A stretch of DNA of 64,000 nt from an uncultured Fodinibius sp. GTDB taxonomy: Bacteria > Bacteroidota > Rhodothermia > Balneolales > Balneolaceae. How positions within the stretch are numbered: the first letter of the stretch is position 1; every line of letters starts with the position of its first letter. The stretch is taken from the NCBI GenBank assembly GCA_913056235.1, contig CAJXMW010000002.1, positions 372,001 to 436,000 of the forward strand, in the 5' to 3' direction. The translations under genes were made by a program, and so were the position numbers. The notes beneath the pieces are model-generated. The model had not been told where the DNA came from. It saw nothing but the letters and a program-made list of their open reading frames with translations, and ran no database searches. Positions 33,184 to 39,240 of this stretch are shown one piece after another.

Positions 33184-34215
33184 ATGGTTATTGGTATAAT
33201 TGGTGCAAGTATTTCGGGACTTATTGCCGGCAAACGATTAGCTGATGCTGGTCACGATGTGACGATCATTGAAAAGAGTCGCTCGATCGGTGGACGGCTT
33301 TCTACAGTTAATATGGATGAGTTGAATCTGGATTTTGGACTTACCCATTTTGAGGCAGACACGGAGACTTTCAGTGCGTTTGTCGATGAATATCAGACGG
33401 AAGGCATATTGAAAGAATGGACGGATGAGTTTGCTCTTTACGATGGGACGGAGATGTATGATATCGATCCCAATGATGATCCGCAGCCGAAATATGTGGG
33501 CACAAATGGTATCCAGGATATCCCTCGAAATTTAGGCCGCTGGGTGGATATAAAATCTCAGGAGCAGGCAGGGGGATTAACCTATATTGGTCCGGACCGC
33601 ACTAAAAAACGTGCCTGGATGATCAACCTCACGGATATCAGCGTATTTGAATGTGATGCCGTAATACTTGCAACACCAGCGGTTGAAGCTTATGGCATTT
33701 TACAGACGGTCCAAAATAAAACGGCTACCCGTCGTATTATTCGCTACATCGACGAGGTACTGTATGACAGCAGTATTTCGCTGGCGGCCACTTACGATCA
33801 CGAGGTTCCGGGATGGGACGGCATTGAATGCGAGCACAGTTCGGTTCGCTGGATAAGTAACGAATCTACAAAACAAGAAGCCGAAAAAGCGGGCCTTGTC
33901 ATCCAATCAACGCACGAGTTTTTCCGCAAGCACGCACGCACGGATGATGAAAAAGCAAAAGAATTATTGCTCGAAGAAGTTTCTGATATCGTTGGGCCAT
34001 GGGTACATCAGACAAAATCAACTTATCTGCACCGCTGGAAGTATTTTAATGCTAGGAATCCGATCGATGAATATTTTATGGAATTGGAAATGGAAGAGGC
34101 ACCTCTCGCGTTAATAGGGGACTACTTAGGTGGAAACACATTAGAAAACGCCTTTGTATCAGGATATAACCTGGCCGAATATTGGATCAAAAAATTTAGC
34201 GAAGTTACTGTATAA
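33184..34215 (+). CDS. FAD/NAD(P)-dependent amine-oxidase-like oxidoreductase
   Basis: The 343-residue flavoprotein starts with a dinucleotide-binding fold, IGIIGASISGLIAGKRLADAGHDVTIIEKSRSIGGRLST, where G-A-S-x-S-G replaces the usual G-x-G-x-x-G and GGRLST is the second FAD contact. NLDFGLTHFEAD and the C-terminal LIGDYLGGNTLENAFVSGYNLAEYW fit the NAD(P)/FAD renalase-like group. The substrate is unknown. The next gene's upstream frame overlaps its end, but the exporter start chosen here lies 44 bases later. Confidence 0.85.
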   Translation: MVIGIIGASISGLIAGKRLADAGHDVTIIEKSRSIGGRLSTVNMDELNLDFGLTHFEADTETFSAFVDEYQTEGILKEWTDEFALYDGTEMYDIDPNDDPQPKYVGTNGIQDIPRNLGRWVDIKSQEQAGGLTYIGPDRTKKRAWMINLTDISVFECDAVILATPAVEAYGILQTVQNKTATRRIIRYIDEVLYDSSISLAATYDHEVPGWDGIECEHSSVRWISNESTKQEAEKAGLVIQSTHEFFRKHARTDDEKAKELLLEEVSDIVGPWVHQTKSTYLHRWKYFNARNPIDEYFMELEMEEAPLALIGDYLGGNTLENAFVSGYNLAEYWIKKFSEVTV

Positions 34216-34258
34216 AATATCTGAGAGAGATCAGATACAATTCATAAAAAGGTATTCC

Positions 34259-36061
34259 GTGGGATCGCTGCGAAAGCTTAACCGATATTTTAAAAAGTAT
34301 AAGGGCACGATTATACTCGGCTCGTTATTTTTAACGGCGTCGAATTTTTTCCTTATCTGGATTCCAGTATATCTGCGCCGAACAGTGGATGAAGTATCAA
34401 ACATTGAGGTTGAAGGAGCAGAGGAGTCTTTTAACAACATTATTGAAGTGCTCTTTAACAGCAGTGCTAGCTGGCCTCTGGCCAAGAATGCCCTGTTTTT
34501 GGTAGGCGCCGTTATTCTTTCAGGTTTATTGCTTTTTGCTACGCGTCAAACACTTATTGTGGCCTCTCGCAAGATTGAGTTTGATTTACGCAACGACGTT
34601 TTTAATAAGTTACTGGAGCTTCCCCAGCGATTCTACAGCGAATATGAGTCCGGTGAAGTGTATGTAAGAGCTACCGAGGATGTATCGAAGGTGCGCGAAT
34701 ATTTTGGTCCGGCTTATATGTACACTATCAACACGCTTACCAGGGCTGGGTTTATTATCACAATGATGATTATCGTGAGTCCCGAATTGACGATGTGGGC
34801 TCTGCTGCCATTGCCGTTTCTATCCGCTTTTGCCTACTGGGTGAGCGGCTATATCAACGATTATTCGCGCATCATCCAAGAGCAATATTCAACCATTGCG
34901 GGCCGTGCAAAAGAATCGTTCTCGAGCATCCGGCTGATCAAGGCGTACAATCGTGAAGCATACGAGAGGAAGCGATTTGAAAATGAAAGCGAGTCGTATC
35001 GTAAAAAAAAGCTGCGGCTGGATATGGTGGAATCACTGTTTCATCCAACGCTTAATCTGTTGATTGGATTGTCGGTAGTAATTGTTGTTTGGAAAGCGGG
35101 CCAACTGGTTATTGAAGGTCAGCTTACGGTTGGGAACATACTGGAATTTATTGTGTATGTAGCATACTTGACTTGGCCAGTGGCTTCGTTGGGATATACG
35201 GTTAATCGTTTTCAACAGTCGATGGCTTCCTGGAAACGTATAGATGAAGTATTGACGGAAGATGTTGAGATTGCTGACAAGTCACATACCAATCAAGATA
35301 TTGATAATATCGAGGGATCTGTTGAGTTTAGAGATGTTTCGTTCAAGTATCCGGGGGCCGAAGAGTACGCGCTTAAAGATGTAAATCTTAAGGTTGAGGC
35401 GGGACAAAATGCAGCGATCGTTGGACGAACAGGAAGTGGAAAAACAACCCTTGTAGAGCTTGTTCCACGTTTGTTTGATGTGACAGAAGGTGAAATTTTG
35501 GTTGATGGCGTGAACATTAAATCAATACCACTGCGGCTGTTACGTAAGAGTATTGGGTTGGTCCCGCAGGATACTTTTCTATTTTCTGATACCATTGGCG
35601 AAAACATTGCTTTTGGAACTGAAAATGCGGCTCAAGATGAAATTGAAGAAGCCGCTGAGAAGGCTCAGGTTCGTGACAATATTTTGGATTTTGAGAAAAA
35701 ATTTGAGACTATATTGGGTGAACGAGGTATCACCTTGTCGGGCGGACAAAAACAAAGAACCGCTATCGCAAGGGCCTTGATAAGAGATCCCAAGATTATC
35801 ATTCTAGATGATTCGTTAAGTGCGGTTGATACAAAGACCGAAGAGGCAATTCTGCAACATCTCAGAGAAGAACTCAAAGGAAGGACAACTTTGATGATTA
35901 GTCATCGTATATCCACAATTAAGGATGCCGATATTATATACTATCTGGAAGATGGCACAGTTGTAGAACAAGGAACCCACGAAGAATTACTAGAAAAAGA
36001 AGGTCGTTATTCAGTCATGTATAACAAACAACTTATAGAAGAAGAGTTGGCTGAAATTTAA
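34259..36061 (+). CDS. ABC exporter half-transporter 1 (degenerate Walker B)
   Basis: The 600-residue half-transporter has six membrane helices then a nucleotide-binding domain. Walker A is GRTGSGKTTL, the signature is LSGGQ (canonical), and Walker B reads IIILDDSLSAVD, with Asp in place of the catalytic Glu. Asp there marks one half of heterodimeric exporters such as TM287/288 and LmrCD. GTG at 34259, preceded by AAAAAGG, is preferred to a TTG at 34154 that would overlap the FAD gene by 62 bases. The second half lies after the RNase Z-like gene. Confidence 0.92.
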   Translation: MGSLRKLNRYFKKYKGTIILGSLFLTASNFFLIWIPVYLRRTVDEVSNIEVEGAEESFNNIIEVLFNSSASWPLAKNALFLVGAVILSGLLLFATRQTLIVASRKIEFDLRNDVFNKLLELPQRFYSEYESGEVYVRATEDVSKVREYFGPAYMYTINTLTRAGFIITMMIIVSPELTMWALLPLPFLSAFAYWVSGYINDYSRIIQEQYSTIAGRAKESFSSIRLIKAYNREAYERKRFENESESYRKKKLRLDMVESLFHPTLNLLIGLSVVIVVWKAGQLVIEGQLTVGNILEFIVYVAYLTWPVASLGYTVNRFQQSMASWKRIDEVLTEDVEIADKSHTNQDIDNIEGSVEFRDVSFKYPGAEEYALKDVNLKVEAGQNAAIVGRTGSGKTTLVELVPRLFDVTEGEILVDGVNIKSIPLRLLRKSIGLVPQDTFLFSDTIGENIAFGTENAAQDEIEEAAEKAQVRDNILDFEKKFETILGERGITLSGGQKQRTAIARALIRDPKIIILDDSLSAVDTKTEEAILQHLREELKGRTTLMISHRISTIKDADIIYYLEDGTVVEQGTHEELLEKEGRYSVMYNKQLIEEELAEI

Positions 36062-36144
36062 CGGTAAAAGTAAACATTCAACTTAACACAACAAGATTGA
36101 TTGTTTGACCGCAATCTAATCCTAAAAACACAGAGGAGTATCAC

Positions 36145-37443
36145 ATGATTATCGTACCATTAGGAGTTGGTTCAGCAACTCCAACGGCAACACGTCACCT
36201 ATCATCGGTGGCCGTATGGAGAGAGGGAAGCGTTTATTTGTTTGACTGTGGTGAGAACGCGCAAATGCGAATGCTGCAGGGTGGACTTAAACGCTCGCAA
36301 ATAGACTGTATATTTATCTCGCACTTCGACACCGATCACTACTCAGGATTAATCGGGCTGCTGTCAACGTTACAGCTACAGCGCCGAGACCGTAAGTTAA
36401 CGCTGGTTGGTCCTGAAGGCTTGAAGGAATTTGTAGAATGGAATTTTGAGTTTGCCAACATCGACCTCAATTATCCCATTGAGTATGTGGAGGTCGAAGA
36501 AGGGATCGAAGAAAAACGTGTGGTTGATGAAGATGAGTTTTATGTAGAAGCACGCCCGTTGAACCACACAAAGTTCTGCTTGGGTTACCGGTTCCAGGAA
36601 AAAGATAAACCGGGCAAAGTGGATGCCGAGAAGGCCCAGGAGATGGGTATCAGTGAAGACTGGCAATACAAAGAACTGAAAGCCGGCAATGATGTTGAAT
36701 TGGATGACGGTACGGTTGTTAAGTCGATGGATATTGTCGGCCACCCACGTCCCGGAGACAGTTTTGCCTACATTACGGATACCAAGTATTGTCCAAACTC
36801 GGTAAAACTGGGGATGAATACGAATGTCCTTTTCCATGAAGCTACCTTCAGTGACAGCTTGTCCGAAAAAGCCGAGGAAACGGGTCATTCAACGGCCAAA
36901 GACGCTGCACGGGTAGCAAACGAAGCGAAGACCAAGCTGCTTGTTATTACCCATTTCTCAGCGCGTTATACCAATGAATATGTACTATTGCGCGAAGCCC
37001 GCGATGATTTCTTCCCTACATGGGTAGCAACGGAACTGCGACCTATTTTTACGGATCCGGCCCACGAAAAAGGCATTATCCAGCCAAAGGTCTACCTCAA
37101 AGAAATCAACCAAAATAAAGGTGGCAATGGCGGAGGTAATGACAACAACAATAATGGAGGCTCTTCCGGTAAGAAAAAGCGAGGAAGCAAAGGCAAGAAA
37201 AAACGTTTCCGCAAACGTAAGAACTATTCTGGCGATAAATCCCGGAAGAAGTACAAAAAGAGCCGAAGCAGCAGTAGCGGAAGTAGCAGCAATGACTCGA
37301 GAAAAAGGAGAAAACGCAGTAAGAAAGACGACAATAATGACTACAACAATAAAAACAAAAGCAGCGGTGGAAGTAGCGACGACCAACGTCAGCCTAAACA
37401 AATAACACCGCGAACTCCTTTTGACGATTTCGACCGGTTCTAA
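36145..37443 (+). CDS. RNase Z-like metallo-beta-lactamase protein with altered metal motif and basic tail
   Basis: The 432-residue protein has the RNase Z layout: PLGVGSATPT, FDCGENAQ, LNHTKFCLGYRF, YITDTKYCPN, ETGHSTAKDAARVA and ITHFSARY. RNase Z cuts tRNA 3' trailers in the cytoplasm. The main metal motif, normally H-x-H-x-D-H, reads HFDTDH at 60-65, so the second His is Asp62; metal binding could be changed. Residues of about 325-432 are a disordered Lys/Arg/Ser/Asn/Gly-rich tail that could bind RNA. A good Shine-Dalgarno (GAGGAG) precedes ATG 36145. The ABC half-transporters flank it on both sides. Confidence 0.86.
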   Translation: MIIVPLGVGSATPTATRHLSSVAVWREGSVYLFDCGENAQMRMLQGGLKRSQIDCIFISHFDTDHYSGLIGLLSTLQLQRRDRKLTLVGPEGLKEFVEWNFEFANIDLNYPIEYVEVEEGIEEKRVVDEDEFYVEARPLNHTKFCLGYRFQEKDKPGKVDAEKAQEMGISEDWQYKELKAGNDVELDDGTVVKSMDIVGHPRPGDSFAYITDTKYCPNSVKLGMNTNVLFHEATFSDSLSEKAEETGHSTAKDAARVANEAKTKLLVITHFSARYTNEYVLLREARDDFFPTWVATELRPIFTDPAHEKGIIQPKVYLKEINQNKGGNGGGNDNNNNGGSSGKKKRGSKGKKKRFRKRKNYSGDKSRKKYKKSRSSSSGSSSNDSRKRRKRSKKDDNNDYNNKNKSSGGSSDDQRQPKQITPRTPFDDFDRF

Positions 37444-37455
37444 AACCCTTAATGC

Positions 37456-39240
37456 GTGAGTAACTCAACAACTGATAAAGCCGTCGACTCGGATTTATTA
37501 CGGCGGCTTTATCAATTTATTAAACCCTATCGATGGTACGTCGTTTTAGGCATTGCACTAACCCTTAGTGCGGCCTTTCTGGGTACGGTACGCCCTAAAT
37601 TGACGCAAATTGCCGTTGATGAATACATCCGCAATAAAAATTTTGAGGGCCTCCTCTGGATTATCATGTTGCTTGTGGGAGCCTTGGTGGGGGAGTTTGT
37701 ACTTCTGGTTGCCAATACCTACCTAACTCGTTGGTTTGGGCAAGGCACGCTCTTCAATCTGCGGAATGCTGTATTTCAAAAAATTCAGTCGCTGCATGTT
37801 CAGTTCTTCGACAAAAATCCCATTGGCAGGTTAATTACCCGAACCACCAGCGACATTGAAGCGCTGAGCGATCTGCTGAGCGATGGGGTTGTGAATATCA
37901 TCGGGGATATGTTCCGCATATTCTTTATCCTGTATTTCATGTTCAGCATGAGCTGGGAGCTCTCGCTAGTGGCCATTTCGGTGCTGCCACTACTGTTTTA
38001 TGCTACCTTCGTGTTCAAAGCCAAGGTGCGGGATACTTTCCTGAAGGTGCGTGATCAAATTGCAAAGCTGAATTCCTTCGTGCAGGAGCATATCAATGGC
38101 ATGGCCATTGTACAGCTTTTTAATAAGGAAGACAGGCAACGCAAAAAATTTAAAGAGATCAACGCCGGTCACCGTGAGGCGTACGTGGAAACCATTTTCT
38201 ATTTCGCCATCTTTTGGCCGTTGGTAGAAATTATTGCCAGCCTGGCGATGGCGCTGGTTATCTGGTATGGCGGCGGTCGAGCGCTAATGGGTAAGGTGAC
38301 ATTCGGTATCCTTCTGGCATTTGTGCAGTATGTACGCGACTTTTTTCGCCCAATCCAGGGACTTTCGGAGAAGTTCAACACGCTGCAATCAGCTCTTGCT
38401 TCCTCGGAGCGCATTTTCAATGTGCTGGACACTGAAAATAAGGTTGCCGATCCCGAAAATGCTGAAACGATTTCCGAACCGCGCGGAGAGATAAATTTTT
38501 CGAACGTATGGTTTGGATACAACGATGAGGAGACAGTACTAAAAGATGTCTCTTTCCACGCTAAGCCCGGCGAAACGATTGCTATCGTTGGAGCTACTGG
38601 TGCAGGTAAGTCAACCATCATCAACCTACTGATGCGGTTTTATGACATTAATGAAGGTTCGATTAAACTAGATGGCAAGGATATCCGGAATTTAAAACTG
38701 GATGAACTACGCTCGAACTTTGCGCTTGTGTTACAGGATAACGCTCTTTTTTCCGGTACTATCATGGAAAATATCACGTTGGGAAATCCTGAGATTTCTG
38801 AGGATGAAGTTATCAAAACGGCGCATAAAGTGGGGGCAGATCAATTTATCAACAAGTTGCCCAACGGGTTTTACTATGAGTTGAGCGAGCGCGGCCAATC
38901 GATCTCCATGGGACAGCGCCAGCTTATTTGCTTTATCCGTGCTATGGTATACAACCCAAATATTCTAATTCTGGATGAGGCAACCTCCAGCGTGGATTCT
39001 GAAACCGAGGACACCGTCAACAAGGCCTGTGAGAAACTGATGGAGAGTCGTACCTCAATCGTGATTGCGCACCGGCTGTCTACCATTCAGGGAGCTGACC
39101 GGATTCTTGTGATGCATAAGGGAGAGATCAGGGAAACCGGAACTCACCAGCAGCTTCTGGAGAAGGAGGAAGGTATCTATCGCAAGCTGTATGAGTTGCA
39201 GTATAAAGATGAAGTGTTGCCCGCCTCGAAGTCGGCTTAG
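37456..39240 (+). CDS. ABC exporter half-transporter 2 (degenerate signature)
   Basis: The 594-residue half-transporter has six membrane helices and a nucleotide-binding domain. Walker A is GATGAGKSTI and Walker B ILILDEATSSVD is canonical with Glu, but the signature reads ISMGQ instead of LSGGQ. This is the complement of half-transporter 1, whose Walker B is degenerate and signature normal. Together they predict a heterodimer with one consensus and one degenerate ATP site, as in TM287/288. The start is GTG at 37456, 13 bases after the RNase Z-like gene. The substrate is unknown. Confidence 0.92.
   Translation: MSNSTTDKAVDSDLLRRLYQFIKPYRWYVVLGIALTLSAAFLGTVRPKLTQIAVDEYIRNKNFEGLLWIIMLLVGALVGEFVLLVANTYLTRWFGQGTLFNLRNAVFQKIQSLHVQFFDKNPIGRLITRTTSDIEALSDLLSDGVVNIIGDMFRIFFILYFMFSMSWELSLVAISVLPLLFYATFVFKAKVRDTFLKVRDQIAKLNSFVQEHINGMAIVQLFNKEDRQRKKFKEINAGHREAYVETIFYFAIFWPLVEIIASLAMALVIWYGGGRALMGKVTFGILLAFVQYVRDFFRPIQGLSEKFNTLQSALASSERIFNVLDTENKVADPENAETISEPRGEINFSNVWFGYNDEETVLKDVSFHAKPGETIAIVGATGAGKSTIINLLMRFYDINEGSIKLDGKDIRNLKLDELRSNFALVLQDNALFSGTIMENITLGNPEISEDEVIKTAHKVGADQFINKLPNGFYYELSERGQSISMGQRQLICFIRAMVYNPNILILDEATSSVDSETEDTVNKACEKLMESRTSIVIAHRLSTIQGADRILVMHKGEIRETGTHQQLLEKEEGIYRKLYELQYKDEVLPASKSA

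Follow-up and report, generated by a model that had tools for sequence, protein, structure and literature searches.

RESULTS

The RNase Z of Balneolales, an order of mostly salt-loving bacteria, is an order-wide variant of single origin that combines a paired change in the active site with a C-terminal tail ending in a conserved tip. This observation is larger than the sequence-only reading of one such gene, which had reported HFDTDH in place of the metal-binding motif HxHxDH, together with a basic tail; that reading did not include the motif I residue Asn38 or the conserved tip of 13 residues. We propose, with about an even chance of being right, that the protein is a tRNase Z that is active, has a first metal site with an oxygen ligand that would prefer Mn2+ or Fe2+, and has a tail that would bear a docking tip.

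A variant RNase Z with Asp in motif II

The gene was read in a window of 64,000 nucleotides (the whole stretch of DNA analyzed, to which all positions refer) from an uncultured Fodinibius sp. A single open frame at 36145-37443 (+ strand) translates to a 432-residue RNase Z, with an ATG start at 36145, a stop codon at 37441-37443, and GAGGAG a few bases 5' of the ATG. A promoter and terminator scan of 35900-37600 returned one site of each kind, fewer than the shuffle means. The features discussed here are as follows.

34154..36061, + strand: upstream ABC exporter gene (open reading frame; start codon not settled), a conserved neighbor
36145..37443, + strand: rnz, 432-residue RNase Z with an HxDxDH motif and a C-terminal tail (translation, TIGR02651, Foldseek)
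36256..36258, + strand: Asn38, which makes motif I DCGEN; relatives outside Balneolales have Gly
36322..36339, + strand: motif II HFDTDH, residues 60-65 (H60-F61-D62-T63-D64-H65; translation, alignment)
36328..36330, + strand: Asp62 (gac), replacing the second His, at the position of B. subtilis His65 (translation, alignment)
36601..36741, + strand: flexible-arm region, approximately residues 153-199, without GxPxGP (alignments; limits approximate, by homology)
37012..37077, + strand: last part of the folded core (residues 290-311), where W293, I301, T303, E308, and I311 are order-specific (alignment; pLDDT <50 from residue 312)
37078..37440, + strand: basic tail, predicted disordered, residues 312-432 (121 residues), net charge +25 (pLDDT block means 38-47)
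37207..37218, + strand: FRKR basic patch, F355-R358, motif [FY][KR]x[RK]; R358 nearly invariant
37402..37440, + strand: conserved C-terminal tip ITPRTPFDDFDRF, residues 420-432 (conservation across the order)
37456..39240, + strand: downstream ABC exporter gene, a conserved neighbor

The NCBIfam RNase Z equivalog TIGR02651 matched residues 4-297 with 317 bits, exceeding its cutoff of 292.95. By sequence, the closest solved relatives are the RNase Z proteins of B. subtilis and E. coli, and the top Foldseek matches of the predicted fold were 4gcw and 2fk6, both RNase Z/tRNA complexes. Near relatives from Fodinibius/Aliifodinibius are 94 to 95% identical to the protein across residues 1-310. Alignment with RNase Z of B. 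subtilis (1y44, 2fk6) and E. coli (2cbn) placed HFDTDH where the two-metal motif HxHxDH is expected, with Asp62 at the second His as first described. There was no gap across HFDTDH, and therefore motif II is not placed elsewhere; the earlier caveat that the true motif might align at another position is contradicted. The remaining motif residues checked, D34, H60, D64, H65, H141, D212, H231-E232, H248, and H270, are intact, as had also been claimed. A HEAT motif (residues 231-234) and an HST motif (residues 248-250) are present, both of which are named as features of RNase Z (PMC3161902).

Bacterial-type RNase Z (tRNase ZS; 1y44, 2fk6, 4gcw, 2cbn) thus has in common with the window protein the fold, the residues of motifs I and III to V, HEAT, HST, and the arm region. 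Unlike tRNase ZS, the window protein has HxDxDH, Asn38 for Gly or Ala, and a 121-residue tail with a tip. Two further tRNase ZS features differ as well. The flexible arm reads GISEDWQY where GxPxGP is expected, and GxPxGP is likewise missing in the sister proteins (L143/L144; see below). The PxKxRN loop, a CCA anti-determinant, is replaced with PTATRH at residues 13-18; A15 occurs in 95 of 100 HxDxDH proteins, and this position is variable within the class too. By descent and profile the protein is an RNase Z, yet it lacks HxHxDH and is for that reason filed as a variant rather than as a typical member.

Asp62 and Asn38 are fixed across Balneolales

RNase Z proteins were read from named-genome loci, from further genomes at the levels of family, order, class, and phylum, and from picked regions. 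When sorted by kinship, the residue at position 62 was Asp in 75/75 loci of Balneolales (74 unique proteins) and His in 50/50 loci outside the order (47 unique proteins, 36 from other orders of the class and 11 from the rest of the phylum). To the earlier question of whether Asp62 is fixed among RNase Z proteins of the phylum, the answer is yes for the order, with His in the loci read outside it. Asp was also found in 68/68 named loci, but these were located by similarity to the rnz protein, so this count is no independent test.

The comparison sets, split by the motif itself, comprised 100 unique proteins with HxDxDH and 47 with HxHxDH, each at least 250 residues long; a 155-residue protein (L080) was left out. 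Position 38 was Asn in 100/100 HxDxDH proteins and Gly (46/47) or Ala (1/47) in HxHxDH proteins. D34, H60, D64, H65, H141, D212, and H270, checked for motifs I, III, IV, and V, were present in all 100 HxDxDH proteins. The core was screened for sites with a conservation of 85% or more among HxHxDH proteins that HxDxDH proteins have lost; within the folded enzyme, this returned Asp62, Asn38 (DCGEG to DCGEN), and a third, milder site, I268. A looser screen against the class returned 20 differing sites, of which 41, 172, and 242 are common to the sister and several lie at the core end. Positions 61 and 63 of motif II were variable, unlike the fixed Asp62. Motif I adjoins motif II in the MBL fold. 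In the proteins compared, Asp62 is order-wide, and Asn38 separates the two sets equally cleanly.

A phylum-wide search for the pattern DCGE, 66 bases, HxDxDH, which is blind to RNase Z with another motif I, matched 52 of 394 genomes, comprising 52/52 from the order and 0/342 others; a reversed control pattern had no match in the phylum genomes. Among the same-class genomes of other orders, 21 of 60 had no full-length TIGR02651 match, and the comparison covers RNase Z of the others; the families concerned are f8, f10, f15, f18, and f19. There was no match over the cutoff in 6/92 family genomes and 5/59 order genomes. Because each of these 11 genomes is only 51 to 89% complete, the missing matches may be sequence gaps. 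Two RNase Z genes (L130 and L200), both ending in DDIDRL, were found in one genome, G126, which has 7% contamination; the extra gene is possibly from a contaminant contig.

The altered gene was inherited vertically

A maximum-likelihood tree was built from 93 rows, with the program flagging long branches among the outgroup rows. A branch supported at 100/100 separates the HxDxDH proteins from all others. Their sister is L143/L144 (support 98/86), which has HxHxDH and no tail. By this tree, the His-to-Asp change arose once.

The gene neighborhood was examined as well. An ABC exporter lies on the upstream side of rnz in 67/67 testable named Balneolales loci and on the downstream side in 64/64, and the order ABC-rnz-ABC (34154-39240 here), counted by position, was found in all 63 of the named loci in which both flanks could be tested. 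Outside Balneolales, 14 of 22 HxHxDH loci share this order, 1 of 22 has the downstream exporter only, and 7 of 22 have neither exporter; the eight without the full order are a counterpoint. Because the ABC-rnz-ABC neighbors are shared with 14 of 22 HxHxDH loci, the altered gene is, on the evidence of its locus, a vertically inherited orthologue of ordinary rnz. A phage origin of the variant was considered and rejected, since the DCGE and HxDxDH pattern had 0 matches in viral contigs.

A single RNase Z and CCA-less tRNA genes

The genome is 98.4% complete, and rnz is its only gene over the TIGR02651 cutoff; the search for a second rnz that had been recommended found no canonical RNase Z above that cutoff in the whole genome. 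Seven other MBL genes all fell below the RNase Z cutoffs in a gene-by-gene NCBIfam scan, outside which lie four weaker Lactamase_B_2 matches. tRNA genes were read from 30 loci (L254-L283, G000) of 45 Rfam matches; 27 were readable, and three near contig ends were dropped. CCA was encoded in 2/27 genes by the Rfam ends, 25/27 being without it, and in 3/33 by ARAGORN. With CCA encoded this rarely, nearly all tRNAs are expected to require 3' trimming and then the addition of CCA. Orthology, the single copy, and the CCA-less tRNA genes suggest that the enzyme is the genome's working tRNase Z, which would trim the 3' trailers of tRNA precursors before CCA addition. The alternative that it acts on another RNA finds no support here, this being the sole RNase Z over the cutoff in a genome in which nearly all tRNA genes lack CCA.

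That tRNase Z activity has been lost altogether, with tRNA ends made by exonucleases and the protein serving another role such as protein deAMPylation, is very unlikely. Residual RNase activity has been mentioned for B. subtilis H65A, and E. coli RNase Z deAMPylates proteins (PMC12663964); however, deAMPylation likewise requires the HxHxDH motif according to the same paper. Against a loss of activity, the other catalytic residues are invariant, the arm region persists throughout the order, no second RNase Z exceeds the cutoff, and the tRNA genes that encode CCA are few.

Position 74 is C in each of the 27 tRNA genes for which the Rfam end could be used, and such partial CCA has been discussed for chloroplast tRNAs (PMC3161902). 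A tie between RNase Z cleavage after C74 and Asp62 was rejected, as HxHxDH outgroup genomes have the same C (G130, 13/13; G144, 13/13; G231, 11/11, as counted with ARAGORN and a stem-pairing script, which may favor such ends and misplaced a few discriminators).

Asp62 as a putative ligand of the first metal

We envisage two joint replacements on the Balneolales stem, Asp for the second His of motif II and Asn for Gly38 of motif I. It is most likely that Asp62 now serves as a first-metal ligand, with H60, H141, and D212, and Asn38, in the adjoining motif I loop, probably holds the Asp62 carboxylate. Such an oxygen-richer first site would prefer Mn2+ (or Fe2+) over Zn2+.

The C-terminal MBL domain of ComEC has HxDxDH in motif II, as does the window protein. 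It lacks the RNase Z arm, and ComEC is unlike the window protein in that it is not an RNase Z, has a DNA substrate, and has Asn for the motif III His. No ComEC model was among the NCBIfam/Pfam matches of the rnz protein up to E = 1, and the likeness is confined to motif II. ComEC in which Asp replaces one of the motif II His residues is reported to bind Mn2+ and to act as an Mn2+ nuclease (PMC8579336), and a ComEC motif given as H598-D600-D602-H603 is Mn2+-dependent (PMC12455585). The ComEC of the Fodinibius genome itself (L006, G000:C1 near 925496-925861) has HPHADH and keeps the His that RNase Z lost, whereas the ComEC proteins of PMC8579336 have Asp at this position.

Mutants of the same residue have been described. 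In PNGM-1, His93, the equivalent second His, is a ligand of the first zinc, and H93A shows weak Zn1 density (PMC7404133). H93A regained RNase activity with Mn2+, inefficiently; Mn2+ rescue also applied to PNGM-1 H91A and H96A and was first seen with T. maritima tRNase Z (PMC6882493). Because ComEC is an Mn2+ nuclease and Mn2+ rescue of mutants has been published, a preference of the first site of RNase Z for Mn2+ is suggested by analogy. Two counterpoints bear on this analogy. Asp may not be the sole source of the Mn2+ preference of ComEC, in which Asn also replaces the motif III His, and the published rescue concerns Ala, not Asp, and other residues too (H91A, H96A). The proposal of the sequence-only reading that the protein may bind metal differently is well motivated, because Asp62 is fixed in the order together with Asn38 and because HxDxDH ComEC is reported to be Mn2+-dependent.

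The enzyme may instead be an ordinary zinc RNase Z, in which Asp62 is a tolerated swap offset by Asn38, metal and chemistry are unchanged, and the tail is a lineage ornament. Asp is able to bind Zn2+, the remaining catalytic residues are kept, and the changes fall on one stem only, which leaves a single event to explain. A merely tolerated swap sits poorly with Asp62 and Asn38 being fixed in 100/100 proteins while positions 61 and 63 vary, and an ornament sits poorly with the purifying selection on the tip (see below). We regard this explanation as unlikely.

A further caveat had been that Asp might be an established variant, active in many homologues. It applies only in part: many homologues do carry Asp, all those found being from one order, and no assay report was found. 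A search for HxDxDH in open-licence literature gave a sole match, which mentions a lactonase with this motif (PMC6146095), and none on RNase Z; among the matches listed for RNase Z work in Balneolales, no paper was found in that literature. Ala mutants at the second motif II His are poorly active (PMC6882493, PMC12663964), and in Balneolales this His is permanently replaced in the sole over-cutoff copy of a usually essential enzyme. If the first site does prefer Mn2+ or Fe2+, the order would represent a natural experiment in how an MBL nuclease changes its metal, with Asn38 as the likely compensating residue.

A basic tail of variable length ends in a conserved tip

The basic tail that had been noted is real, occupying residues 312-432. 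HxHxDH proteins in the comparison were 301 to 332 residues long, and no tailless protein was found among the complete HxDxDH proteins. The 94 HxDxDH tails measured (those of L200 and L139 being omitted) had 87 to 237 residues, with a median of 107, and net charges of +9 to +39. The motif [FY][KR]x[RK] occurred within the first 90 residues in 86/94 tails, and at least 3 RGG, GGY, or GGR occurrences were found in 20/94.

Conservation of the tip was assessed in 96 full-length unique proteins, among which kin copies are not independent; HxDxDH proteins cut by contig ends (L051, L065, L078, L113, L115, and L194) were left out. The tip is composed of three Asp, two Arg, and a Phe end. Arg was found at both -10 and -2 in 96/96 proteins, Asp at -3 in 93/96 (Asn in 3/96), and Phe at -1 in 94/96 (Leu in 2/96). 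The mean share of the top residue was 0.87 over the 13 tip positions, versus 0.33 directly before the tip and 0.26 further up the tail. Both invariant Arg positions use all six Arg codons across the 96 proteins, indicating that the tip is kept at the level of protein sequence. Judged from these comparisons, the tip is under purifying selection, and the order-wide tail is a basic linker of variable length, predicted to be disordered, followed by a strongly conserved 13-residue tip. The tip looks like a candidate docking peptide.

A tail that is mainly an unspecific holder of RNA or polyanions, or a driver of condensation (RGG-like in some families), with a tip that merely caps it, is somewhat unlikely. 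The charge of the 94 tails, the frequency of the basic patch, and the RGG-type repeats all fit such a role, but the linker varies freely while the tip is nearly fixed, and the tip has more Asp than Arg. RNA holding, as suggested in the sequence-only reading, is possible for the basic linker and does not explain the conserved tip.

AlphaFold2 models of the rnz protein and of its orthologue L057 had confident cores, with pLDDT block means of 36 to 47 for tail and tip. The two monomer models showed no confident contact of the tip with its own monomer, and docking of the tip on the monomer was rejected as a prediction with no confidence in either. An autoregulatory or metal-shielding role, in which the tip would contact RNase Z itself, perhaps the second subunit of a dimer near the altered metal site, is doubtful. 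In its favor, none of the proteins read has the tail or the altered site without the other, both had arisen by the same stem, Asp and Arg are conserved in the tip, and in the model of the rnz protein residues 355-358 and 424-428 are just outside the stretches of pLDDT <50, which is a very weak hint. In the L057 model, however, the entire tip but one residue is at pLDDT <50, and neither monomer model docks the tip with confidence.

The reading we favor is that of a docking tip. The tail, gained by the same stem as the active-site changes, would be a disordered basic linker able to touch RNA, and the 13-residue tip, to judge from its conservation, would bind a partner surface and tether RNase Z to another protein. 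Asp62, Asn38, and the tail all fall on one stem, and their connection may be no more than historical. A fuller version, in which the order has a natural Mn or Fe RNase Z with coupled Gly38Asn and His62Asp changes, tethered by tail and tip to a tRNA- or RNA-processing complex not yet described, is rather unlikely. A docking peptide tethered in this way is not known to us from any bacterial RNase Z. A search of open-licence literature for RNase Z with a disordered C-terminal tail had as its only match an archaeal RecJ-RNase J complex.

Two known systems resemble this arrangement by description. In human mitochondrial ELAC2 with TRMT10C-SDR5C1, a C-terminal helix touches a partner in the tRNA-processing complex (PMC11996679); ELAC2 differs in being a long form with HxHxDH and a helical extension, and it is likened by description, not by sequence. 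E. coli SSB has a folded core, a disordered linker, and a short conserved tip ending in Phe (PMC7145534). No common sequence was seen between the SSB and RNase Z tips (the SSB of the Fodinibius genome ends in DEDFDDIDDDLPF) and the RNase Z linker is strongly basic, so that the parallel is an analogy only.

In its own genome, the tip was found at one site only, at rnz, allowing up to 3 mismatches. A docking motif shared with other proteins was rejected: a looser pattern, which misses some rnz tips (for example, G034 [L110, Asn at -3] was unmatched), occurred at 15 places in 14 family genomes, 12 of them at rnz, including the rnz tail at a contig end (L219). The 3 other places end stretches of 8, 17, and 27 residues and look like chance. 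As a bait, the tip could serve for finding RNase Z partners in Balneolales.

The tail filler differs by group, with Lys, Ser, and Asn in Fodinibius and Arg-Gly-Gly or Tyr-Asp-Asn repeats in some others, and the Balneola group has a weaker form of the tip, RSRSSYRDQDRF.
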